A DNA stretch of 64,000 nt from Longimicrobiales bacterium (GTDB lineage Bacteria > Gemmatimonadota > Gemmatimonadetes > Longimicrobiales > Gaopeijiaceae), in assembly GCA_028278645.1 (NCBI GenBank), contig JANQDZ010000034.1, positions 62,001 to 126,000 of the forward strand, written 5' to 3'. The stretch's first letter is position 1. The number at the start of each line of letters is the position of its first letter. Positions 5,300 through 26,258 of the stretch are shown in pieces. The position numbers and the translations under genes are program-made. The notes under the pieces are model-generated. The model saw only the letters and a list, made by a program, of their open reading frames with translations. It was not told where the DNA came from and searched no databases.

Positions 5300-6139
5300 C
5301 TACCAGGGAAGCCACGGGTATTTCCGGAAGTCGGGTTTCCGCTTTTCTATGTAGGCGTTCTTCGCTTCCTGTGCCTCTTCAGTCATGTAAAACAGTAGCG
5401 TGGAGTTGCCCGCAAGCTCCTGGAGGCCGGCCTGACCGTCCACGGCCGCGTTGAAGGCGGACTTGAGAAGCCGGATGGAGAGGGGGCTCTTGTCCAGGAT
5501 CTCCTGAGCCCACTTCCAACCTTCCTCTTCCAGGGTTTCCACCGGAACCACCGCGTTGACAAGGCCCATGGCTTCGGCTTCCTCCGCTCCGTATTGGCGG
5601 CAGAGGAACCAGATTTCCCGGGCTTTTTTCTGCCCGATGATGCTCGCGAGGTAGGATGCCCCGAAGCCGCCATCGAAGCTCCCCACCTTGGGCCCGGTTT
5701 GACCGAACACGGCATTCTCGGCTGCGATCGTTAGGTCGCATATCACGTGAAGGACATGACCACCCCCGATGGCATACCCGGCCACGAGAGCGATGACCGG
5801 CTTGGGCATGCTCCGGATGTAACGTTGAAGCTCCAGAACGTTCAGCCTTGGCACACCGTCACTTCCCACATACCCGGCTTCCCCTCGGACCCGCTGATCC
5901 CCACCGGAGCAGAAAGCGTACTTCCCATCCTTGGCCGGGCCATTGCCCGTGAACAACACCACACCGATCTCCGTGTCCTCACCAGCATCTCGGAAGGCTT
6001 CTTGAAGCTCCAGGAGAGTATCCGGGCGGAAGGCGTTCCTCACCTCGGGCCGATTGAAGGCGATCCGGGCGACACCATCGCACTTGTGGTATGTGATGTC
6101 CTGATACTCCTTCACCTCTGTCCAGTCCGGTCTACTCAT
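5300..6139 (-). CDS. menB: 1,4-dihydroxy-2-naphthoyl-CoA synthase (MenB)
   Basis: Crotonase-fold enzyme that closes the second ring of o-succinylbenzoyl-CoA to give DHNA-CoA. The 279-residue protein has the oxyanion-hole and active-site segments [11 protein letters not shown] and [11 protein letters not shown], and [14 protein letters not shown], which is characteristic of MenB rather than other enoyl-CoA hydratases. I chose ATG 6139, which gives [12 protein letters not shown], because it overlaps the menD stop (ATGAGTAG), as the other junctions of this operon do. An upstream in-frame ATG at 6181 would lie deeper in menD. Confidence 0.95.
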
Positions 6140-7970
6140 TCGAATCAGTCCTTTGGGGTCCAAAACCTTCAAAAGCTCCAACCACGTTTTTGATCATCCG
6201 GGCTCGTCCCTCGTGGGTTTTCCGTCGATCGGTCCGTACCTCCAAAATGGCCGGTCCCCGGGCATCCAGCACCTTGGAGAACTCAGCCCGGAAACCTTGC
6301 AGGGTATCGGCTCGACCATACCGGATACCGTAGAGGTCAGCCGCCTTCCCGAAGTCCAGCCCGTGGGGCGTGGCAAAAAACCGAGTGAACGCCGGCTCGT
6401 GCTCCCTCACGGGAAGGGTGTGAAAGATCCCACCGCCATCATTGTTCACTACCACAAGAACGACCCGGGCCTGGAGATCCTTGAGTCCCAGAAGCCCGTT
6501 CATGTCATGGAAAAACGCCAAGTCTCCCAGGACCCCGACGGTGGGGGGACTCACATCGGATCCCTGGGAAATCCCCAACGTAGTTGACACCAGTCCATCG
6601 ATTCCGCTGACCCCCCGGTTCCCAAACACCTGGATCCCCGTTTCTCTGGACCCGGAAAAGGCGTCCAAGTCCCGGATGGGCATGCTGGAAGCCACCAGAA
6701 GGTCTGCCCCTTCCGGGAGGGCCTCGGTGACGGCGGCGAGAATCTCGCCCTCGAGGAGCTCCCCCGGTTCGCCGGATTCCAACGTCCGTCGGGTCCGGGC
6801 CTCGGCTTCGGCCCAAAGCTGGGTCCACCCGGACTCCTGGCTGGGACCTGGACCTTTTGTCAGCTGTGGTAGAATTCGGGCAGGCGACCCTGTGAGGTAG
6901 TCGTGGGCCGAGGCCAGGTGGTCCTTCCACCGGTGACCATCGTCGACCACAACCTGATAGGCATTGGACGCCTCCTCCAGGTACCGGAGGAGCGCAGCCG
7001 ACGTGGGCGACCCTCCGACACGCAAAACGAAGTCCGGAGCGAGAATTTCCCTGGCTCGCTCCGACCGTAAGAAAAAGTCATATCCGTTTACCACCGTCGC
7101 CCCTTCCGACGGCACGAACCGAGCGCCTGACAACGGGTCTGCCAACACCGGGATCCCCTTGGCTGCGCTCAGCGCCAAAACGGCAGGGCCAACTTCCTCG
7201 GCATTGGGAACCGGACCGGCCACGATCACCCCCCTCACTCCGGCTTCCATGGCACTCCGGACCCTGTCGAGCTCCGCTTCAGGCACCAAGATGGCTCGCG
7301 GAGAGACCTGAGTGAAGGCTTCACCGTCGGGACGCCCTACTCCCGCCCGAGGGTGTCGGTCACCGAACTCCTCCAGTTCCTCCCCCAGGGAGGGCCCCGG
7401 TTCCAAGTGCCCAGGGAGGTGTGCAACGGGCTCAAGCGGCTTCTCGAAAGGGAAATTTAGGTGTACCGGACCCCTGGGAGGCCCCATGGCCAAAAAAACG
7501 GCCCGGCCGGCCAGCGCCCTGAGATGCCGGATTGCCGGCCCGTCCAGGCGGGGAGGCTCCACCTCGAAGAACGCCCTGGGGAATGCCCCGAAAAGGCGCA
7601 GCTGGTCCATGGCCTGATTCCCGTCCGTGTCTCGGAGCCGATGCGGGCGGTCGGCGGTGAGGACCAAAAGTGGCACCTCCCCTTGGCAGGCTTCGATCAC
7701 GGCCGGGTAAAGGTTGGCCGCAGCAGTACCGGAAGTGGTGATCACGGCGGCCGGTCGGTTTGCTTTCTTCGCCACCCCCAGTGCGAAAAACCCAGCCGAG
7801 CGTTCATCAACGATGGAGAACATGCGGAACAGGCCGCTCTCGGCTGCCGCCAACACCAGGGGAGTCGATCGAGAGCCGGGGGCCACACAAACCTCCCGGA
7901 CCCCACTCCGGGCCAATTCCTCGAGAAAGGCTCGGGCCCAGATGGCGTTCTGGTTCCCTCGGCTCGTCAT
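6132..7970 (-). CDS. menD: SEPHCHC synthase (MenD)
   Basis: Thiamine-diphosphate enzyme that adds decarboxylated 2-oxoglutarate to isochorismate (Stetter-type addition), the first committed menaquinone step. 612 residues, close to the family norm. The N-terminal Pyr domain shows [23 protein letters not shown] (ThDP-activating Glu region) and [17 protein letters not shown]. The C-terminal PP domain has HDMNGLL and [15 protein letters not shown], the ThDP/Mg2+ motif. ATG 7970 overlaps the menF stop as ATGA, and an internal alignment with MenD N-termini supports it. Confidence 0.95.
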
Positions 7971-9379
7971 TCTCCGTGATCCTCCGGTCCCAGGTCGGTC
8001 CGTGCCCCGGAGAGGGCTTTCAGGACAGGCTGGAACTTGATCTGGGTTTCCGCCCACTCACCGGACGGGTCGGAGCCTGCCACGATCCCTGCGCCGGCGA
8101 ACAGCCGCCAGTCCTTCCCGATCCCTAGCGCCGACCGGAGAGCGGGGACAAAAACCCCATTCCCGTCGTTGTCGAACCACCCCACCGGCCCCGCATACCA
8201 CCCTCGTCGGAAGGGCTCTTCCGTTTTGAGCAGGTCCAGAGCTTTGTCGCGGGGAAAGCCGCATACCGCCGGTGTGGGGTGAAGGGCCTTGAGAGTGGAG
8301 ATGACGGTTTCTTCCGGATGGAGATTAGCGTTGATGACCGTTTCGAGGTGTTGGATCGTAGCCAGCGTAAGGACGTGTGGTTCGGCTTGGGCCCGAATCT
8401 CATCGGAAACACCCGCCAGCCGAGCCAACATATCCTCCACAGACACACGGTGTTCGTGCCGGTCTTTCTCGCTTTTGAGAAGCCGAGTCGCGTATTCCTC
8501 CTGCTCTTCTGCACTCGCACCCCGAGGGATGGACCCCGCCACCGCTGTCGCCTGGAATGCGCCGCCGGCCACCGTGGCCACTGTCTCTGGTGCAGCCCCA
8601 ACGAGGGCATGGCCAGGAACCGGCTCGAAGAGGAAGACATGAGATCCGGGGTTTTCTTTCCACAGATTCAAGACGACGTCCACCGGGTCCATGGCGCCCT
8701 CGAAGGACGCCGTGAGGGCCCGGGCCATGACAACTTTGGAGAGGTCGCCTCGAGACACTTCGAGCAGAGCCCGCTCGACCATTGCACCCCAGGTGTCTCG
8801 ATCCACGTCTGATCGCGTCGCCGGAACACACCGGCCTCGGTTTGCAGAGCCCGGGTCCTCGGCCACGAGGGAGTCCCGAACGGAGGCCAGCTCCTCCCGG
8901 AGTTCCTGCCGGCATCGAGCCGGATCCGGGGAGGGCGGGTGCAAGCGTCGGAGCGTGAGAATCCCGGTCGCCTCCCCTCCCACCATCTCCAGCTCGGGGA
9001 GGATAAACTGGGCGGAAGGGAAGTGGGCCCACTCCTCTCGCGCCTCATGATCGTCACTGAAGGAGAAGCCACCGAAGAGTCGCGGGGACGGTGGATTCAC
9101 CTGGGACCGCGGATCCTTCCAGGAACAGGAAAAGATCGTGCGGGCCTCCGACCAAACCTGGTCGAAGCGATCAGCGCCCTTTTTCCGGGAGTCCACCTCG
9201 ATGGAGGCGGCCGTTCCGATATGGGCAAACCAGCGACCCTCCCGAGCCCAGAATCCCCGGGGACCACCCCTTCCCCGCCGGAGGAGGATCGCCGGGTCCA
9301 CGTCCTCCAGGGGCACAGAGAGGGACACCAGTCGTTTTTCGACCGGAGTCGGATCCGTCACCGCCTTTGCCTTCGGCAT
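7967..9379 (-). CDS. menF: Isochorismate synthase (MenF)
   Basis: Chorismate-binding enzyme that converts chorismate to isochorismate, feeding MenD. About 470 residues from ATG 9379. The C-terminal catalytic core is plain: VAGSIPRGASAEEQEEYATR, KDRHEHRVSVEDML, HLETVINANLH, LHPTPAVCGFPRDKA, RGWYAGPVGWFDNDGNG and FAGAGIVAGSDPSGEWAET. The N-terminal third is poorly conserved, as is usual. A GGAGGTGA motif 10-13 bases upstream supports the ATG at 9379; in-frame starts further up have no support. It is the first gene of the men operon, so the operon promoter probably lies in 9380-9551. Confidence 0.93.
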   Translation of the reverse strand: MPKAKAVTDPTPVEKRLVSLSVPLEDVDPAILLRRGRGGPRGFWAREGRWFAHIGTAASIEVDSRKKGADRFDQVWSEARTIFSCSWKDPRSQVNPPSPRLFGGFSFSDDHEAREEWAHFPSAQFILPELEMVGGEATGILTLRRLHPPSPDPARCRQELREELASVRDSLVAEDPGSANRGRCVPATRSDVDRDTWGAMVERALLEVSRGDLSKVVMARALTASFEGAMDPVDVVLNLWKENPGSHVFLFEPVPGHALVGAAPETVATVAGGAFQATAVAGSIPRGASAEEQEEYATRLLKSEKDRHEHRVSVEDMLARLAGVSDEIRAQAEPHVLTLATIQHLETVINANLHPEETVISTLKALHPTPAVCGFPRDKALDLLKTEEPFRRGWYAGPVGWFDNDGNGVFVPALRSALGIGKDWRLFAGAGIVAGSDPSGEWAETQIKFQPVLKALSGARTDLGPEDHGE

Positions 9380-9551
9380 CCTGGCTTTGTCACCTCCATC
9401 GCATGTCAGGTGATCGCGGTCCAAAGTCCCGGAAAGCATGGAAATATAGGCCCCGCAACTCTTCCACCAAGAGGCGGGGGACCCATCCACGCCCTTTTCC
9501 GGGCGGATCCAGGGGTCGGTACCCGGAGGTAAGCCCAGCGATCCGGACGGC

Positions 9552-11570
9552 TCAAGGCTGGGACTCCCCCTCGACGACGATCTCGTCCACGAAGAGCCAG
9601 GCATTCTCCGGGACTCCGGGGTGCCACTCCGGAAGTGGACCCCGATTCCGGGCCCGGACTCGAACGAACCGGGGCCAATCTGCCCGGGGCATCGAGGGAA
9701 CTCCTACTTCGATCCTGACCGCTTCCTTCTCCAGCTTATTCTCCAGACGGACTTCCGTTCGATCCGCTCGAGTCCACTGGTCCCCGTCGACAGAGACGGA
9801 CACCTCGACCCATCGGGGAAGGAAGATCCAAGGGCCCTGTGCCCTGAGACAGTCCACTCCGACCTTCCTCACCGGCCTCGGTTGCCCAAGGTCGATGGTG
9901 GCGTCCAGATCTACTCCGCTCCACCCCATCCATCGTTCATCGTGGTGGTCTCGACTTCCCATCTTTCCGTCGCAAAGGCCGTCGGCGCCGGTGCCTGGAT
10001 AAGACGAGTCCGGTGGGGTTGTGAGGGAGATCTGAGCACCTACAGCCAGGTGATCCAAGTCGGCAGGCCGATCAAAGCTCGACCGGCCCGGCGGCCTGAC
10101 CTCGACTCCACTTCGACCCGTCAGCCGATCTCCCAGGGCCTCTCGGGCCTTTTCGGCCAGAGCGTCCAGGCGGGCCACCACCTCCGGGTGCTCCCCCGAG
10201 ACGTCCCGGGTCTCCCCGATGTCGTTCTCCAGGTCGTAGAGGGCGTCCGGCACAGTGGGAAAAGCGTGCGGGCCTGGGAGCCCTTCCATCCCCGGCTCGA
10301 CACCCTGGTAGGAGCGGGTCCTATGCTCGTAGACCCTTTTCCACCGGCCCTCCCGGATCCCCCTGAGTTGGCCATCGTAGTAGAACAGGAACTGGTTCCT
10401 GGGTTTGGCGCCCTCCTCCCCGAGGAGGAGGGGCCCGATGTCCACACCGTCGATAGGGACTTCCGGCAGCGCGGCCCCTGTGACAGCCGCAATGGTAGGC
10501 ATCACATCCAAAGTGGATGCCATACTCGGATTGACCGACCCGGCTTCGATTTTTCCTGGCCACCACCAAATGGCCGGCACCCTCGGGCCTCCCTCGAAGG
10601 CCGTCCCCTTCCCTTCCCGAAGGGGCCCCGCCGATCCGGCGTGATCCCCGAAGTTCAGCCACGGGCCGTTGTCACTGGTGAAAATCACCAGAGTATTCTC
10701 CGACACACCCTCCCGTTCCAGGGTCTCCATGACCTGACCCACCGACCAGTCGATCTCCTCCATGACATCCCCGAAGAGGCCTTGGGCCGTCGTTCCTCTG
10801 AACCGTGCCGACACCCCCAGAGGCACATGAACCATCGAGTGGGCCAGGTAGAGGAAAAACGGCCTGTTCGAGTTCCGGCCGATGAAGTCCACCGATCGCT
10901 GTGTGAACAAAGTCGTCAGCTGATCCTGCCCAGCCTGGTCACCGATGGTTTGTACGGTCTCGTTTCCATCGATCAGCGGAAGGGGGGGGTGGGCCGCTTT
11001 TGCCCCTTCAACGGCAGGGGTGCCGTCATATTCCACCGGCCACATGTCGTTTGAGTAGGGGACCCCAAGGTACTCGTCGAATCCGTGTTGCAGCGGCAGG
11101 AACTCCCGATGATGCCCCAGGTGCCATTTCCCGAAGATCGCGGTGGCGTAGCCCTCCTCCTTGAGCATCTCACCGATGGTAACCTCATCGGGGTGGAGAC
11201 CCACCTCGGAAGAGGGAGAGAGAGCGCCTCGGATTGACACCCGCTCGGCATAGCAGCCAGTGAGAAGGGATGCCCTGGACGCCGAGCATACGGCTTGAGA
11301 AGCGTAAAAATCGGTGAATATCATGCCCTCGGCGGCCATTCGGTCCAAGTTCGGGGTCCGGAAGCCTTCTGCCCCGTAGGCTCCGATGTCCGCGTAGCCG
11401 AGGTCGTCAATGAAGATCAGGACGACGTTCGGCGGCCGGACCTCCCGGTCACCCGGCGAACAGGTCTGGGGCAACCCCCCAGCTGATAGAGCCAACCCGG
11501 CGAGTCCCATCCTCCTTAGGAACTCCCTCCGGTTGGGGTGATGGGCCATGAGCTCGTGAAAAGGGTCCAT
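9552..11570 (-). CDS. Tat-exported S1-type sulfatase with C-terminal discoidin-like domain
   Basis: Sulfatase family S1 enzyme of 672 residues, predicted to hydrolyse an organic sulfate ester outside the cytoplasm. The N-terminus has a twin-arginine signal (NRREFLRRMGLAGLALS). The metal-binding segment is NVVLIFIDDLGYAD, and CSASR with Cys at residue 95 is the CxSxR-type site converted to formylglycine. FGKWHLGHH and FTSDNGPWLNFGDHAG are further sulfatase motifs. After about residue 500 an extra beta-rich region (VKVGVDCL-like, RWVEVSVSVDGDQWTR) resembles F5/8-type C or discoidin carbohydrate-binding domains. ATG 11570 starts directly before the Tat signal. It is divergent from a second sulfatase at 11721. 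A formylglycine-generating enzyme is not seen in the window. Confidence 0.87.
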   Translation of the reverse strand: MDPFHELMAHHPNRREFLRRMGLAGLALSAGGLPQTCSPGDREVRPPNVVLIFIDDLGYADIGAYGAEGFRTPNLDRMAAEGMIFTDFYASQAVCSASRASLLTGCYAERVSIRGALSPSSEVGLHPDEVTIGEMLKEEGYATAIFGKWHLGHHREFLPLQHGFDEYLGVPYSNDMWPVEYDGTPAVEGAKAAHPPLPLIDGNETVQTIGDQAGQDQLTTLFTQRSVDFIGRNSNRPFFLYLAHSMVHVPLGVSARFRGTTAQGLFGDVMEEIDWSVGQVMETLEREGVSENTLVIFTSDNGPWLNFGDHAGSAGPLREGKGTAFEGGPRVPAIWWWPGKIEAGSVNPSMASTLDVMPTIAAVTGAALPEVPIDGVDIGPLLLGEEGAKPRNQFLFYYDGQLRGIREGRWKRVYEHRTRSYQGVEPGMEGLPGPHAFPTVPDALYDLENDIGETRDVSGEHPEVVARLDALAEKAREALGDRLTGRSGVEVRPPGRSSFDRPADLDHLAVGAQISLTTPPDSSYPGTGADGLCDGKMGSRDHHDERWMGWSGVDLDATIDLGQPRPVRKVGVDCLRAQGPWIFLPRWVEVSVSVDGDQWTRADRTEVRLENKLEKEAVRIEVGVPSMPRADWPRFVRVRARNRGPLPEWHPGVPENAWLFVDEIVVEGESQP

Positions 11571-19568: not shown

Positions 19569-19597
19569 TTGACGGGAGAAGTCCCGGAGAGTATTGA
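19569..19597 (+). promoter_or_regulatory. Candidate promoter of the trp leader operon
   Basis: TTGACG (19569-19574), a 17-bp spacer and TATTGA (19592-19597) resemble a sigma-70 promoter. It would start transcription near 19604, about 50 bases before the leader ORF. This is from consensus match only. Confidence 0.45.
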
Positions 19598-19655: not shown

Positions 19656-19736
19656 ATGAAGTCCAAGGGGATTCATACCTGGTGGTGGTGGCGCTCGCAC
19701 CCGAGCGGCGGGAGGGGTGTGGACTTCTTCGACTAG
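19656..19736 (+). CDS. trpL: Tryptophan leader peptide with four tandem Trp codons
   Basis: A 26-codon ORF starts at ATG 19656 and stops at TAG 19734-19736. The peptide begins MKSKGIHTWWWWRSHP: four consecutive TGG codons occupy 19680-19691. A purine-rich AAGGTGAGG lies about 10 bases upstream of the ATG as a Shine-Dalgarno. The ORF is followed 30 bases later by a terminator hairpin that ends 15 bases before the next gene. This is the layout of a ribosome-mediated attenuation leader: slow decoding of TGG codons when charged tRNA-Trp is scarce would stall the ribosome and alter RNA folding downstream. Four tandem Trp codons are very unlikely by chance, and the WWW-x-x-H-P pattern resembles known trp leader peptides. 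The peptide itself probably has no other function. Confidence 0.85.
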   Translation: MKSKGIHTWWWWRSHPSGGRGVDFFD

Positions 19737-19796
19737 GAACTCACCACACTTCGAACAAGGTCTTCCCGCTGCAGCTGACTGCAGCGGTTTTTTTTT
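19692..19796 (+). promoter_or_regulatory. Transcription attenuator (1:2, 2:3 antiterminator and 3:4 terminator pairings)
   Basis: Three mutually exclusive helices can be drawn. 1:2 pairs CGCTCG (19692-19697, immediately after the Trp codons) with CGAGCG (19702-19707). 2:3, the antiterminator, pairs 19705-19715 with 19762-19772 over 11 positions, two of them G-U. 3:4, the terminator, pairs CCGCTGCAG (19766-19774) with CTGCAGCGG (19779-19787). Region 2 overlaps helix 1:2 and region 3 overlaps the terminator, so a ribosome stalled on the TGG codons would mask region 1, free region 2 and favour read-through. The pairing was found by eye; energies were not calculated. Confidence 0.8.
19766..19796 (+). 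terminator. Attenuator terminator hairpin with T9 tract
   Basis: A perfect 9-bp stem with CTGA loop (19766-19787) is followed by nine consecutive T's (19788-19796). It lies upstream of, not after, a gene: the next start codon is at 19812 with its own GAGAGGA ribosome site at 19797-19803. Confidence 0.9.
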
Positions 19797-19811: not shown

Positions 19812-20666
19812 ATGTCCGGGAGAAAATATCTGGAGAAAAACGGAGAGTTGAAGGTCGGCGAGTTACCCGAACTTCATATCGTATCGTTGAACGATGTGGT
19901 CCTCCATGAGGATCCAGACATGGAGAGGGTGGCCCGCCTCGTGGACCGTTTCAGCGCGGATGGGATCCTGAAGAACCCTCCGATAGTGGGCCGCTCCAAG
20001 GGTCATCGACGGATAGTACTGGATGGCGCCAATCGAATTACAGCCCTCAGGAAACTCGGGTACACGGATGTATTGGTTCAGGAACTAGACCTGTTCGATC
20101 CGGGCCTGTCGCTGGGAACCTGGCACCACGCAATCGAACGCCTGACCGCCGCGGAACTCCTGGACCACGCGGGATCGATTTCTGGGGTGACTCTGGAAGA
20201 GGAGGGGGAAGTCGACATAGACTCGGTACCAAAACTGGCCAGATTCCATCTCCCCAGCGGGCAAGCAGTCTCTCTAGTAGGGGCCGACGGGCTGGATGAG
20301 AGAGTCATCCAATTACACAGCCTCACCAAGGTCTATCACCGATTCGCCTTCTTCGATCGGGTCAGCTACGCAAATATGGACGATCTGGTCCGTAACTATC
20401 GGAACTTCACGGCTCTCCTCACGTTCCGTCCCTTTTCTCTGGAGGACCTTCAGGAGCTGACCCATTGGGACCGCCGGGTCCCCAGCGGGGTGACTCGAAT
20501 CCTCCTTCCGAAGAGAGCCCTACGGTTCAACCTCCAACTGGAGATGCTACGTGCCGGCCTCTCGGTGGAGGAAAAGGAGACCTGGCTGCAACAGACGATC
20601 CTGGAGAAGGTCGGGGACAAATCGATCCGTTTCTACCGCGAGCCCACCTTCTTCTTCGACGAATAA
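19812..20666 (+). CDS. ParB-fold SerK/SbnI-like protein, candidate free L-serine kinase
   Basis: 284 residues with an N-terminal ParB/sulfiredoxin-type domain: LHEDPDMERVARLVDRF, GILKNPPIV and LDGANRITALRKLGY (residues 31-84). Unlike chromosome-partition ParB there is no helix-turn-helix domain. Recalled sequences of the archaeal ADP-dependent serine kinase SerK and staphylococcal SbnI have a Glu in a PHE-type motif, an Asp in a DGHHR-type motif and a C-terminal P-x-x-T-R-x-(I/L)-P stretch. Here the equivalents are Glu33, Asp71 and VPSGVTRILLP (223 on), although the DGHHR His pair is replaced by Ala-Asn. SerK and SbnI make O-phospho-L-serine from free serine. The gene lies behind a Trp attenuator and 66 bp before trpB2, so supply of O-phosphoserine to TrpB2 is the favoured hypothesis. 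A regulatory ParB-like role remains possible. Confidence 0.65.
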   Translation: MSGRKYLEKNGELKVGELPELHIVSLNDVVLHEDPDMERVARLVDRFSADGILKNPPIVGRSKGHRRIVLDGANRITALRKLGYTDVLVQELDLFDPGLSLGTWHHAIERLTAAELLDHAGSISGVTLEEEGEVDIDSVPKLARFHLPSGQAVSLVGADGLDERVIQLHSLTKVYHRFAFFDRVSYANMDDLVRNYRNFTALLTFRPFSLEDLQELTHWDRRVPSGVTRILLPKRALRFNLQLEMLRAGLSVEEKETWLQQTILEKVGDKSIRFYREPTFFFDE

Positions 20667-20732
20667 GACATACGTGAATCAGATTCTTTCCGCTCCATGC
20701 ACGCCCACGAAGGGCACACCCAAGGAGAAACC

Positions 20733-22091
20733 ATGGACTCCGTGAAGATCTTCCTAGCCGAGGAGGATATGCCCCGGCACTGGTATAACATCCAGGCCGA
20801 CTTACCCGAACCCATGCCCCCGGTGATCCATCCCGGTACTCACGAGCCCATCGGGCCGGACGACCTCGCACCCCTCTTCCCAATGGGCCTGATCGCTCAG
20901 GAGGTGAGTCAGGAGCGGTATATCGAGATTCCGGACGAAATCCTGGACATCTACAAGATTTGGCGGCCTTCCCCCCTAGTGAGAGCCCGGAATTGGGAAA
21001 AGGCGCTAGGGACTCCCGCGAAGATCTACTACAAATGGGAGGGTGTGAGCCCAGCGGGGAGCCACAAGCCCAACACCTCCATCGCTCAGGCGTGGTACAA
21101 CAAGGAAGAGGGTGTCCAGCGGATCACGACGGAGACCGGTGCGGGGCAATGGGGCAGCGCACTCTCCCTGGCCTGCAACTTCTTCGGCATCGAGTGCAAG
21201 GTTTACATGGTACGTGTTTCCTTTGACCAGAAGCCCTACCGCCGGCTCATGATGCAGAGCTGGGGAGCCACCTGCATCCCCAGCCCCAGCGACCAAACCA
21301 ACGCTGGACGGAAGATCCTCGAGATGGATCCTGACACCCCCGGCTCCTTGGGTATCGCCATCAGCGAGGCGGTCGAGGAGGCCGCCATGAGGGAGGATAC
21401 GAAGTATTCCCTGGGGAGTGTTCTGAACCATGTCATGCTCCACCAGACCATCATCGGACTAGAAAGCATCATGCAGTTCGAGATGGCCGGAGACTATCCG
21501 GACGTGGTGATCGGCTGCGCGGGGGGTGGATCGAACTTCGCGGGATTCGCCTTCCCGTTTGTGCGGGATATGCTCGTCGATGAGAAGAAGACCAAGGTGA
21601 TCGCGGTTGAGCCAAAGGCATGCCCCACGCTCACGAGGGGACTCTACAAGTACGACTTCGGGGATACCGCTTGCACAACTCCGCTAATTCGGATGCACAC
21701 CTTGGGGCACGATTTTGTACCTGCTCCACTTCACGCCGGTGGCCTCCGGTATCACGGTATGGCCCCGTCCGTCAGTCATCTCTATGAGAAGGGCTACATC
21801 GGCGCCCAAGCCTACCACCAGAAAGAGTGCTTCGACGCCGCCCTGGGTTTCGCTCGGGCCGAAGGGCATCTGGTAGCCCCAGAAACGTCCCACGCCGTGA
21901 AGGCCGCGATGGACGAAGCCCTTGCCTGCAAGGAGAGCGGAGAGGCGAAGGTTGTAGCCTTCAATGCCAGTGGTCACGGCCATTTCGACATGGGCGCCTA
22001 CGAGAAATACTTCGCCGGAGACCTCGTGAACTACGAGTATCCGGAGCGGAAGATCGAGGAAGCTCTCTCCAAACTGCCTCCATTGGACTGA
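20733..22091 (+). CDS. trpB2: TrpB2-type tryptophan synthase beta chain
   Basis: Pyridoxal-phosphate enzyme joining indole to a serine-derived aminoacrylate to form tryptophan. 452 residues, longer than classical TrpB (about 400), with the N-terminal extension ([31 protein letters not shown]) typical of TrpB2. The PLP lysine is Lys112 in [12 protein letters not shown]; the phosphate-binding loop is [23 protein letters not shown] is the conserved catalytic-Glu region. AAGGAG at 20722-20727 supports ATG 20733. No trpA lies next to it, which is common for trpB2. TrpB2 enzymes are reported in the literature to prefer O-phospho-L-serine over serine, matching the adjoining SerK-like gene. Confidence 0.9.
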
Positions 22092-22120
22092 GGCGAACCG
22101 AGCCTACCGGGCCGAGCCGG

Positions 22121-22153
22121 CCCGCCTCCCGAAAGGGGGGCGGGTCACTTTTT
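22121..22153 (+). terminator. Terminator after trpB2
   Basis: A 10-bp stem with one G-U (22121-22130 with 22135-22144) is closed by a GAAA tetraloop and followed by TCACTTTTT. It ends the trp module, separating it from the TRAP operon. Confidence 0.88.
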
Positions 22154-22330: not shown

Positions 22331-23293
22331 ATGCATCCATCGAGTCATCGCCCTCATCCATCCCAGGTCCGGAGGAGGTCGGCGCCTCTCCTTTTGCTCC
22401 CCCTCTTCTCCCTGGCGATTTCCGGCTGCTCGATTAAGGGCATGGCCGTCAACAGCGTGGCTGACGCCCTCTCCGGCGCAGGAGGTAACGGGGGAAGCAA
22501 CGTCTATTTGACGGACGACGATCCAATCCTGGTAGGCCAAGCTCTCCCCTTCAGCCTGAAACTCATGGAGACCATCCTCCAGGAGACACCGGAGCATGAA
22601 GACCTCCTCGTGGCTACAGCCGCAGGCTTCACCTCTTACGCCGAGATGTGGGTGTTGAGGCCATCGAGGTACCAGGAGGAAACCGACGTCCACGCGGCGC
22701 GAGCCCAAAGGATGCGGGCCAAGGCCCTCTTCCTGAGAGCCAGAGGATATGCAGGCCGCGCATTGGAAGTGAAATACCCGGGGATCGAGCCCAGATTGCT
22801 CATGACTCCGGATTCTGCGGTTGTAGAGCTTACCGCGGACGACCTTCCTGCGATGTACTGGTTTGCGGCGGCCCATGGTCGTGCGATAACCAGCGACCTG
22901 AGTGATGCCGAGCTGATGGTGAAAGGCAACACGGTTCTGGCTTTGCTCGAAAGAGCAATCGAGCTCGACGAGACCTGGAACCGAGGCGCTTTTCATGAGC
23001 TCTTTATGGCCCTTCCAAAGCAGCTCGGGGGAAGTCCCGAAAAGGCCGAGGAACACTACCAAAGGGCGATGGAGCTGAATGGCGGCTCGTCGGTTGGCCC
23101 CATGGTCTCCCTGGCGGAATCGGTATACCTCAAGCGACAGGATCGGGCGAACTTCACCCGGATCCTCAACGAGGTCTTGGCCTTTGACCTCGACGAACAC
23201 CCGGAGAACCGGCTGGCAAACACATTAGCGCAGGAACACGCCGCCTGGCTGCTCTCAAGAATCGACGAACTCTTCTGGATGGACTCGGAGTAG
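22331..23293 (+). CDS. tatT: TRAP transporter TatT component family lipoprotein
   Basis: 320-residue helical lipoprotein: a basic signal with LAISGCS lipobox places the lipidated Cys at residue 33. The rest is alpha-helical, with TPR-like pieces (LLVATAAGFTSYAEMWVL, AELMVKGNTVLALLERAIELD, AEEHYQRAMELNGGSSVGPMVSLAE). This matches the TatT family first described beside a spirochaete TRAP transporter, where TatT forms a trimer with a pore and binds the TatP substrate protein. GGAGGTG upstream fixes ATG 22331. It is first in a three-gene TRAP operon with a 37-bp gap to the next gene. Confidence 0.87.
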   Translation: MHPSSHRPHPSQVRRRSAPLLLLPLFSLAISGCSIKGMAVNSVADALSGAGGNGGSNVYLTDDDPILVGQALPFSLKLMETILQETPEHEDLLVATAAGFTSYAEMWVLRPSRYQEETDVHAARAQRMRAKALFLRARGYAGRALEVKYPGIEPRLLMTPDSAVVELTADDLPAMYWFAAAHGRAITSDLSDAELMVKGNTVLALLERAIELDETWNRGAFHELFMALPKQLGGSPEKAEEHYQRAMELNGGSSVGPMVSLAESVYLKRQDRANFTRILNEVLAFDLDEHPENRLANTLAQEHAAWLLSRIDELFWMDSE

Positions 23294-23330
23294 TCAGGCC
23301 GTCCTACAATACAAGGAGATCGAGGACCCA

Positions 23331-24365
23331 ATGACCCTCCAACTTCATCAGAAGCTTTTCCGAGGCTTTTCCATTCCGGTATTGGCTCTGCTACTCCTCT
23401 GCCTGACCGCCACCCCGGGCCTGAGTCAGCGCGATAAGATCGTCATCAAGATGGCCTCCCTCGCACCCATCAATTCGGATTGGGATTTCGCCCTGAAGGA
23501 CATGGCGGAGAAATGGGAGGCCGCCAGCAACGGAATGGTCGAGCTCCGAATTTACGGAGGTGGGCAGGGGGGGGAGGAAAAGGACGTCATACGAAGGATC
23601 AAGCTCGGGCAGTTCCAGGCCGGCGGTTTCACCGTGGCCGGCCTCCAAAACCTGACGAATGCCGTCGTCTCCTTGGCCATCCCTATGCTCATGGAAGATC
23701 AGGAGGACCTCCGCAGAGTAAGAGAGGTGATCGGGCCGAAGCTGGAGGCGGTATTTGAAAGGCAGGGGTTTGTGCTGCTCCACTGGGCGGACCTGGGGTG
23801 GATGAGGTTTTTCACACCCGGACCGTCCGCTTCCCCTGACGCGGTCAGCAGTTACGTCTACGTCCAGTGGGGAGAGGATTCCATGGGTGATATCTGGAGG
23901 GACGCCGGGTTCTCCCCGGGGACCCGGCTCCCAATCGACCAGGTATCCTCCGGGCTTCAGACCGGAATGGTGAACGCCATCAACACTGCTCCCCTTGTTG
24001 TGGCTGGATATCAGTGGTTCCCATATCTGGACTATATGATCGACCTGCGGTGGGCTCCCCTTACCGGCGCAACTCTCGTGGACAAGAGGACATGGGATAG
24101 AATCCCTGCGGATTTGAGGACTGAACTCATGCAAATCGCCAAGGAAACAGGGGCGACGGTCCGAGCACAGCTCGCCGAATGGGAAGGGGCAGCCATCGAG
24201 AGCATGAAGTCCCATGGCCTGGAGGTCATAGTCCCTGATCAGGCGTCATTGGACCAGTGGGAGGCACTCTTTCAAAGGACCATGCCTCTCCTGATTGGCC
24301 CGATGGTTCCAGAAGATTGGTATGCGGAGGCAGTACAGGCCGTCGAGGAAGGGAGGGGTGGATGA
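23331..24365 (+). CDS. TRAP transporter substrate-binding protein (DctP/TatP type)
   Basis: 344-residue periplasmic solute receptor. The signal peptide (ALLLLCLTATPGLSQ) precedes DKIVIKMASLAPINSDWDFALKDMA, the usual DctP beginning. Other family features are GMVELRIYGGGQGGEEKDVIRRIKLGQFQAGGFT and LIPIDQV-like QVSSGLQTGMVNAINTAPLVVAGYQW. It delivers ligand to the permease encoded 3 bp downstream and probably contacts TatT. TatT-linked receptors have been suggested to bind hydrophobic ligands; no ligand is evident here. Confidence 0.9.
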   Translation: MTLQLHQKLFRGFSIPVLALLLLCLTATPGLSQRDKIVIKMASLAPINSDWDFALKDMAEKWEAASNGMVELRIYGGGQGGEEKDVIRRIKLGQFQAGGFTVAGLQNLTNAVVSLAIPMLMEDQEDLRRVREVIGPKLEAVFERQGFVLLHWADLGWMRFFTPGPSASPDAVSSYVYVQWGEDSMGDIWRDAGFSPGTRLPIDQVSSGLQTGMVNAINTAPLVVAGYQWFPYLDYMIDLRWAPLTGATLVDKRTWDRIPADLRTELMQIAKETGATVRAQLAEWEGAAIESMKSHGLEVIVPDQASLDQWEALFQRTMPLLIGPMVPEDWYAEAVQAVEEGRGG

Positions 24366-24368
24366 TCC

Positions 24369-26258
24369 ATGAAGGACACCTGGGAGAACACCTCATCTGA
24401 CGGTTTGAACGGGGGGGGCTCTCACTGGGCGTTTAAGCTGGCCGGAGCCGTGGCCCTCCTGGCCCTGGGAGCCATGGTAGTCCTTCCCCTACTCCAGGCA
24501 GGGTCCAGAGTAGTCAACCGAAGACTCCTGTCGGTCCCCGTTCCCAATACCGTTGAGTGGGTCAGGCATCTGACACTTTGGACTGGCCTCCTGGGAGCCC
24601 TCTTTGCTTCTTGGAAGGACCGACACCTCGCCATAGCAGTGGGTGAAGCCGTCCGGTCTTCCGCTTGGAAAGCTCGATTTTCAGCTCTCAGCCGCGGGGG
24701 AGCCGTTGGCATCCTGGTCTGCCTCACAGTTTCTTCCACCCAACTCGGATTGGCCTACGCAGGAATGGGGGACTTCGGCCAGATAGGCGGCTGGCTCCCT
24801 CTGTGGGTCGCCATGGCACCGATGCCCCTGGCTTTCGGGGCCATGACGGTGGCTACCTACTGGCGCCCCGGAGAAGCCTGGTCTTCCCGCTTTTGGATTC
24901 TCCTGCTGGCACTCTTGGTAGGGCCGGTCCTCGTGCTCATCCCGCTCGGGGACGGGGCCTTCCTGAGGGCCGTCGGCATCCTCGCCATCTGTATGTTGGC
25001 CGGGGTCGGCATGCCGCTTTTTGCCGCCCTCGGCGGCACCGCCCTCCTGCTTTTCTTCCTCGATCCAGCTGGGAGTGTGACCTGGCCTTTGGATCAGACC
25101 TACCGAATCACGTCCGAAGGCCTCCTTCCCTGCATCCCCTTATTCGTGCTGGCCGGTGTGATTCTGGCGCGAGGGGAAGCCGCAACTCGTCTCATAAAGG
25201 TTGCACGGACATGGACCGGATGGGTCCCGGGAGGGGCCTCGGTGGCAACCATCCTGGCTTGCGCCTTTTTCACAGCTGTCACCGGAGCTTCCGGGGTGAC
25301 CATCTTGGCCCTCGGCGGCCTCCTCCTCCCTGTGCTCATTGCCGCCAAACATACGGAACGCTTCAGCCTCGGTTTGGTGACCGCTTCGGGTTCGGTCGGC
25401 CTCCTCTTTTTCCCGAGTATCCCGGTGATCTTGTACGCCGTGAGAGGTAGTTCGATGGTGGCTCCTCTGGGCGTCAAAGAACTCTTCCTGGCGGGGCTTA
25501 TCCCTGGCATGCTGCTCCTTTTGATTCTCGCTGCCTACAGCATGTTCCAGGTCAGGAGCAGTTGGGCCACCCGCCCCTCTTTCACACTCCGGGAGGCCAT
25601 GGGCGCCGCCCGGATCGCCTGGGGAGACCTCCTCTTACCGGTCCTCGTTGTCGTGGCGTTCTTCGGTGGGCTGATGACCCTCGTTGAGACTGCGGCGCTG
25701 GTCGCGGTCTGGGCCTTTCTCTTGGAGTTCGTGGTCCACAGGACCCTCCGGCTAAGGAAGGACCTCCTAGCCACTTTCTTTGAGAGTTGCCTGGTGGTGG
25801 GAGCATTGGTCGCTGTAATCGGGATGGCGTTCGGGCTCTTTTCCTTCCTTATGGATCACCAGGTGCCGGAAACCGTTGCAACCTGGCTAACAAGCACGAT
25901 TGAATCGAAGCTGGTGTTCCTCCTTGTCTTGAACGTCCTTCTTCTGGTGGTGGGGGCCCTGATCGACATCTTCTCGGCGATCGTCCTCATCGTCCCTATC
26001 CTCGCCGCCGTGGCCCCGGAATACGGGATAGGTCCGGCTCATCTGGGCATTGTTTTCCTGGCGAACCTCGAACTCGGATACTTGACCCCTCCGGTCGGGA
26101 TGAACCTATTCCTGTCCTCACTCACCTTCGACAAGCCAGTGCTGAAGGTGTGGAGAGCGGCCCTACCATTCCTGGCCATCTTCGCGATCTGGGTCCTATT
26201 GGTGACATACGTACCTTTTCTCTCACAGGGTATCGTCGATCTGGTCCTGGGCCGCTAG
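24369..26258 (+). CDS. TRAP transporter permease, fused DctQ-DctM
   Basis: 629-residue inner-membrane protein. The first about 190 residues carry four hydrophobic helices like the small DctQ subunit (VRHLTLWTGLLGALFASWKDRHLAIAV is its conserved stretch). The rest is the large DctM subunit with about 12 helices and conserved segments GVGMPLFAALGGTALLLF, EGLLPCIPLFVLAGVILARGEAATRL, ASGSVGLLFFPSIPVILYA and LGYLTPPVGMNLFL. It uses a cation gradient to import the receptor-bound ligand. The start follows the receptor stop by 3 bp. Fusion of the two permease subunits is a recognised TRAP variant. Confidence 0.92.
   Translation: MKDTWENTSSDGLNGGGSHWAFKLAGAVALLALGAMVVLPLLQAGSRVVNRRLLSVPVPNTVEWVRHLTLWTGLLGALFASWKDRHLAIAVGEAVRSSAWKARFSALSRGGAVGILVCLTVSSTQLGLAYAGMGDFGQIGGWLPLWVAMAPMPLAFGAMTVATYWRPGEAWSSRFWILLLALLVGPVLVLIPLGDGAFLRAVGILAICMLAGVGMPLFAALGGTALLLFFLDPAGSVTWPLDQTYRITSEGLLPCIPLFVLAGVILARGEAATRLIKVARTWTGWVPGGASVATILACAFFTAVTGASGVTILALGGLLLPVLIAAKHTERFSLGLVTASGSVGLLFFPSIPVILYAVRGSSMVAPLGVKELFLAGLIPGMLLLLILAAYSMFQVRSSWATRPSFTLREAMGAARIAWGDLLLPVLVVVAFFGGLMTLVETAALVAVWAFLLEFVVHRTLRLRKDLLATFFESCLVVGALVAVIGMAFGLFSFLMDHQVPETVATWLTSTIESKLVFLLVLNVLLLVVGALIDIFSAIVLIVPILAAVAPEYGIGPAHLGIVFLANLELGYLTPPVGMNLFLSSLTFDKPVLKVWRAALPFLAIFAIWVLLVTYVPFLSQGIVDLVLGR

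Follow-up and report, generated by a model that had tools for sequence, protein, structure and literature searches.

A short open reading frame with four consecutive tryptophan codons stands immediately upstream of a serK-like gene and trpB2 in the 64,000-nucleotide stretch of Longimicrobiales DNA analysed here (the window), and this arrangement raises the question of whether the two genes are governed by the supply of tryptophan and, if so, to what end. Attenuation of transcription by ribosomes stalling on Trp codons is a classical mechanism, exemplified by E. coli trpL. From the sequences compared below, we are highly confident that the locus encodes a ribosome-mediated transcription attenuator that would sense charged tRNA-Trp and control serK-trpB2, a pair of genes that would serve phosphoserine-dependent tryptophan synthesis.

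Architecture of the Leader Region

A first-pass annotation of the window had described a 26-codon leader with four tandem TGG codons, a 9-bp terminator with nine T's placed 15 bp before the next start codon, an antiterminator pairing 19705-19715 with 19762-19772, and a competing 1:2 hairpin directly after the Trp codons, and had concluded that all classical parts of ribosome-mediated attenuation are present. Each of these parts was recovered (Table 1). The antiterminator can be drawn with 12 consecutive pairs between regions 2 and 3 (duplex -23.6 kcal/mol) and shares the 5′ arm of the terminator. The intrinsic terminator itself lies between the Trp-codon ORF and the first gene, its T-run ending 15 bases upstream of the serK ATG at 19812.

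Table 1. Features of the serK-trpB2 locus, in window coordinates.
Feature	Position	Strand	Basis or detail
Promoter-like pair TTGACG-N17-TATTGA	19569-19597	+	87 nt 5′ of leader ATG
Leader peptide ORF, 26 codons, MKSKGIHTWWWWRSHPSGGRGVDFFD	19656-19736	+	ATG 19656, stop codon 19734-19736
Four tandem TGG (Trp) codons, sensing codons	19680-19691	+	sequence
1:2 hairpin CGCTCG-CACC-CGAGCG (region 1 and start of region 2)	19692-19707	+	-9.2 kcal/mol
Region 2, antiterminator 5′ arm	19703-19715	+	
Region 3, antiterminator 3′ arm, overlapping terminator 5′ arm	19761-19772	+	
Intrinsic terminator (3:4 hairpin), 9-bp stem 19766-19787 and T9 19788-19796	19766-19796	+	-17.4 kcal/mol
serK-like gene, predicted free serine kinase of SerK/SbnI fold (ParB-CTPase-like)	19812-20666	+	predicted fold, structure matches, Glu alignment
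trpB2, TrpB-like PLP enzyme	20697-22091	+	NF009057, TIGR01415
Terminator-like hairpin 3′ of trpB2, probable operon end	22119-22146	+	12 pairs, 10 G-C

On both strands of the window, the leader locus is the only place where a short ORF with at least three Trp in six codons is followed by a terminator, and the chance level of this test is 0.03 per window (30 dinucleotide shuffles of the window). When an RNA model of the leader (R1) was searched over 395 genomes of the phylum under strict filters, strong scores were obtained only for the window and for G337, which represents the same locus as the L013 leader discussed below; the remaining matches (E 4.5e-4 to 0.1) may be due to chance.

Distribution of Trp-Rich Leaders

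Short translatable ORFs with tandem Trp codons occur at 40 loci including the window, 17 before serK loci (of which L102 and L143 have no trpB2 on the same contig) and 23 before trpB2 alone. The 39 leaders besides the window (16 and 23, respectively) fall in at least three further bacterial groups. Of 2100 shuffled versions of the approximately 105 trpB2/serK upstream regions, none passes the leader-and-terminator test, and neither do the reverse strands. The first-pass annotation had named a SerK-like protein and trpB2 as the controlled genes, which is correct for the window but does not hold as a property specific to the pair: because 23 leaders stand before trpB2 alone, control attaches to trpB2 and extends beyond the serK-trpB2 pair.

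Among close relatives, leaders precede serK in L051 (WWWW), L007 (WRWW), L008 (WWW), L102 (WWW), and the AT-rich L011 (WWWW). The trpB2 gene follows serK on the same contig in L051, L007, L008, and L011, while in the genome of L102 it is found at the start of another contig (L009). The L013 leader (WWW) stands before trpB2, and its genome yielded no serK. In the phylum of L011, SerK-like proteins occur in 17 and TrpB2 in 49 of 82 genomes, with leaders at 12 serK loci and at 21 trpB2 genes that lack serK. A MAG named as Acidobacteria (L045, 36-185) carries the leader MIQ...VWAWWCAGMSGGCGA and a terminator before trpB2. Among 21 leaders scanned, most (though not L007 and L013) have a promoter-like TTGACN-N16/17-TAT-like pair 46-95 nt upstream of the leader start codon, and many other leaders have TTGACA-N17-TATATT or a near variant.

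Loss of the Trp codons or of the pairing in close relatives that retain serK-trpB2 had been named beforehand as an outcome that would speak against attenuation. Relatives with serK-trpB2 and a readable upstream region keep both the Trp codons and the competing pairings, the 2:3 pairing being weak in a few AT-rich loci. Leaders are absent at serK homologues without a detected trpB2 (L140-L142 and G188). G188 (L092, G188:C136), a member of the family, is the only close relative with serK but without Trp codons; its SerK-like protein is 67% identical, and what remains upstream of the gene is a terminator-like hairpin that retains the CCCGCTGC arm but has a broken U-tract. This genome is not among the matches of the family-wide TrpB2 search, and its serK sits at a contig end. 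To judge from the sequence, this single case looks like decay after loss of trpB2 and not like a counter-example. Outside the leader-bearing groups, most trpB2 genes lack such a leader. At L150/L194 (G493) and L156 (G436), trpB2 loci of the L011 phylum, the upstream region has a T-run or terminator-like end with no Trp-run leader recognised; here the leader may have been missed or may have decayed.

The persistence of the codons also bears on whether the hairpins could answer to a signal other than translation, such as a T-box, a TRAP-like protein, or a riboswitch, with the ORF being incidental. A structured 5′ region with a terminator would be expected in that case as well, but 40 leaders retain the Trp codons, with an almost constant spacing of about 12 nt to region 2, and a search of the window against all 4227 Rfam families, including any Trp leader family, returned no match at gathering score. 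We regard such an explanation as hardly credible.

Codon Content of the Leader Peptides

The composition of the Trp run varies among relatives (WWWW, WRWW, WWW, WFWPWWW, WWGWWW, WFWYWYY, etc.). In G447, G448, and G449 the operon starts with a chorismate mutase gene followed by serK-trpB2, and the leader reads WFWCWYY or WFWYWYY, with Trp, Phe, and Tyr codons; leader codon content thus tracks the content of the operon. A DAHP-synthase-like gene lies 3′ of trpB2 in G447 and G448, not in G449. This order of chorismate mutase, serK, and trpB2, with an aromatic leader and its own terminator, is that of L175 (5700-9500), L176, and L177, with the DAHP-synthase-like gene next in L175 and L176. The attenuator of these three loci may respond jointly to Trp, Phe, and Tyr.

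A Trp-containing leader peptide before Trp-related genes is also what would be expected if the nascent chain sensed free tryptophan within the ribosome tunnel, as in TnaC-like arrest, with no stalling on Trp codons. However, the variable make-up of the codon runs and the presence of Phe and Tyr codons before aromatic-pathway genes both point to codon counting. The peptide outside the Trp residues and a Ser-Gly forced by region 2, which in many relatives reads as in-frame AGY GGG, is not conserved across groups, and an intrinsic terminator with alternative 2:3 and 3:4 pairings exists. Arrest of this kind is therefore very improbable, and stalling on the Trp codons remains the preferred reading.

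Competing Pairings and Covariation

Region 2 (GCRGCGGG), region 3 (CCCGCTGC), and region 4 (GCAGCGGG) compete for the same pairing, and in L011 all three have changed together, to AGTGGG, CCCACT, and AGTGGG. In the seven closest leaders, 11 nt (10 in L011) separate the last Trp codon from the start of region 2 as drawn; in most loci of the wide set this spacing is approximately 12 nt. The pattern TGGTGGTGG gave 344 in the window genome against 252 for the reversed pattern, which says little alone.

The first-pass annotation had proposed looking for covariation in related genomes, and compensatory change is found in the 1:2 hairpin and, on the wide set, in the 2:3 pairing. In an alignment of six sequences, 90% of cells in the 1:2 hairpin are paired and two pairs have changed on both sides, with 8 of 500 shuffles equally good; the two-sided changes are clearest in L007 (TGCCCC-GCGA-GGGGCA). 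For the antiterminator, no pair has changed on both sides in the same six-sequence alignment, and it does no better than column shuffles; its covariation is seen on the wide set only. There, cognate regions 2 and 3 of 32 loci form 8.03 of 9 pairs, compared to a mean of 7.17 and a maximum of 7.56 over 2000 swaps between loci, although part of this excess is built in, since region 2 was defined at each locus as the segment that pairs best there. The swap test was anchored on the Trp run, as the L143 and L151 peptides have a later Trp, and its strict region-3 search omits 8 of the 40 loci. Neither in this test nor in the wide-set covariation are the loci and lineages independent, relatedness being uncontrolled. 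At position 7 of region 3, the pair is C-G in 12 loci and U-A in 11. Position 4 forms a U-G pair in the antiterminator of 15 loci, whereas the terminator there has mostly G-C, a difference that would favour termination by default. An antiterminator that shares the terminator 5′ arm and would be free under a Trp stall is thus present, but in four AT-rich loci (L134, L139, L132, and L135) its pairing is weak, at -8 to -12 kcal/mol, and does not exceed that of swapped regions.

Folding of the leader RNA, which had also been proposed at the outset, gave the two expected states. When a ribosome masks the last Trp codon and region 4 has yet to be transcribed, each of the seven closest leaders folds into the antiterminator, with 8-11 bases of region 2 paired, and unoccupied leader RNA folds with the terminator. 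In the window, the antiterminator beats the terminator under the masked stall even on the full transcript. With region 4 present, the terminator is the minimum-energy fold even under a stall in L051, L013, L008, and L102, so that in these leaders kinetics must decide.

A Model for Control of serK-trpB2

The cis-acting parts, with their conservation, spacing, and covarying pairing, can be read in the sequences, and they suggest the following course of events. The promoter-like pair would start a transcript carrying the short leader ORF. When Trp-tRNA is scarce, the ribosome would stall on the TGG codons and cover the 5′ arm of the 1:2 hairpin (19692-19697). Region 2 would then be free to pair with region 3 before region 4 is made, no terminator would form, and serK-trpB2 would be transcribed. 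When Trp-tRNA is plentiful, the ribosome would pass region 2 and the 1:2 hairpin would close behind it, leaving region 3 to pair with region 4 so that transcription stops at the T-run.

The replete state deserves comment. The stop codon lies 14-21 nt beyond region 2 in the seven closest leaders, and it is doubtful whether a ribosome pausing there would shield region 2. In the window this distance is 18 nt, so the Trp-replete state requires the 1:2 hairpin and a moving ribosome rather than a parked one. We infer that, under Trp sufficiency, regions 2 and 3 are held apart by this hairpin as it re-forms behind the ribosome.

The Downstream Genes

The product of trpB2 belongs to the TrpB2 family by a wide margin, with 743.4 bits against NF009057 (cut-off 366) and 655.7 bits against TIGR01415 (cut-off 518.85), and the structures nearest to it are TrpB2-type tryptophan synthase beta chains. 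By comparison with L013, its true start is likely the ATG at 20733 (MDSVKIF...). TrpB2 enzymes are reported to be tryptophan synthases that depend on O-phosphoserine (Busch et al., 2014) and to have high indole affinity, both as cited in PMC11917138.

The SerK-like protein scores 63.2 bits with the NCBIfam equivalog model of SbnI, whose cut-off is 350, and 33.9 bits with that of SerK, whose cut-off is 380, and so lies below both. Its AlphaFold model (mean pLDDT 80) nevertheless has the fold of free serine kinases (PMC5120207; PMC12704722) over its whole length; its nine top-ranking PDB matches are without exception SbnI, SerK, or the P. furiosus homologue (TM 0.72-0.78, normalised to target length), and Glu33 aligns with the catalytic Glu30 of SerK (P. 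furiosus 1vk1). With the kinase activity and substrate use predicted in this way, the SerK-like protein would yield O-phospho-L-serine, which TrpB2 would combine with indole to form tryptophan.

Beyond trpB2 and its terminator-like hairpin lies a TRAP transporter set (22331-26258), comprising a TAtT protein (22331-23293), DctP, and a fused DctQM. Elsewhere in the window, on the minus strand (6132-9604), a probable menD (6132-8057) stands beside a probable isochorismate synthase gene (7967-9604) that is weakly matched by the trpE model.

Other Tryptophan Genes

Bacteria with TrpB2 usually have TrpB1 as well. The window genome conforms to this, having canonical trpB1 and trpA in a trpDCFB..A cluster on another contig. 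No Trp leader was seen in the part of that contig region that was read, nor upstream of trpE elsewhere in the genome, and among the trp genes checked the leader is present only at serK-trpB2. The cluster (L090, G000:C60) has the order trpD-C-F-B-x-x-A, in which two unrelated-looking ORFs (585 and 485 codons) separate trpB1 from trpA.

A second route to tryptophan in this genome leaves room for an operon that is attenuated by Trp but serves another purpose, such as supplying serine or phosphoserine elsewhere or carrying out beta-substitution with another nucleophile, particularly as both enzyme activities are predicted from sequence and structure. Against this, the amino acid sensed is Trp, 23 leaders stand before trpB2 without serK, and the reported activity of TrpB2 enzymes is tryptophan synthesis. 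Furthermore, among 13 serK-trpB2 genomes of the L011 phylum, TrpB1 above the TIGR00263 cut-off is present in three (G459, G460, and G490) and missing from ten (G425, G447, G448, G449, G458, G485, G486, G487, G489, and G492), an absence that is not proven, as these are draft genomes. We consider a role outside tryptophan synthesis unlikely and retain tryptophan synthesis as the probable function of the operon.

Comparison With Known Systems

The cellular role of TrpB2 has hitherto been obscure, although biochemically it is able to join indole to O-phosphoserine. That a switch for sensing Trp accompanies trpB2 in groups distant from one another is genetic evidence for TrpB2 in Trp synthesis, and the recurrence of this switch before about 40 trpB2 genes suggests that TrpB2 makes tryptophan when Trp runs short. 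The linkage to serK suggests a source for the phosphoserine. On balance, we lean towards the view that several groups, including one little-studied phylum, make tryptophan from phosphoserine through a module that is under Trp-tRNA control and in which a serine kinase of the ParB fold supplies TrpB2, with TrpB2 as the sole tryptophan synthase beta subunit in some. The RNA in control would then belong to an attenuator family that has not been described, AGYGGG-CCCRCT-AGYGGG being its usual core.

The first-pass annotation knew of no description of such control for a serK-trpB2 pair, and none was found in a literature search on trpB2 attenuation and serK-trpB2 that covered few subscription papers, so an earlier description is possible. 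The trpB2A operon of C. diphtheriae (PMC1262725) contains what we take to be a second ordinary trpB. As a protein, the window TrpB2 falls in the same family as known TrpB2 (COG1350, NF009057), for which the search turned up no account of Trp attenuation or of linkage to a serine kinase gene. The SerK-like protein shares the full-length fold, catalytic Glu, and DGxxR motif of SerK (TK0378) and SbnI, free serine kinases whose known product is O-phospho-L-serine. Unlike these, it is partnered with trpB2 and not with siderophore or cysteine genes.

Ribosome-mediated Trp attenuators have been predicted in the trp leaders of Actinobacteria, namely Corynebacterium and Streptomyces (PMC1262725). Like these and E. 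coli trpL, the leaders described here combine a short ORF with tandem Trp codons, alternative 2:3 and 3:4 helices, and an intrinsic terminator before a Trp-making gene. Unlike the attenuators of trp operons, they precede serK-trpB2 or trpB2 alone, and their ORF takes in region 2 and, in the seven closest leaders, ends 14-21 nt farther on. In E. coli the ribosome is parked on region 2 when Trp is sufficient, whereas in the window, with its stop codon 18 nt past region 2, that role would pass to the 1:2 hairpin and the moving ribosome. The usual core also differs from the actinobacterial gGCC-rGCy-GGCC, and this attenuator family of little-studied groups is absent from Rfam. The mechanism is thus the classical one, while its target and the RNA family appear to be undescribed.
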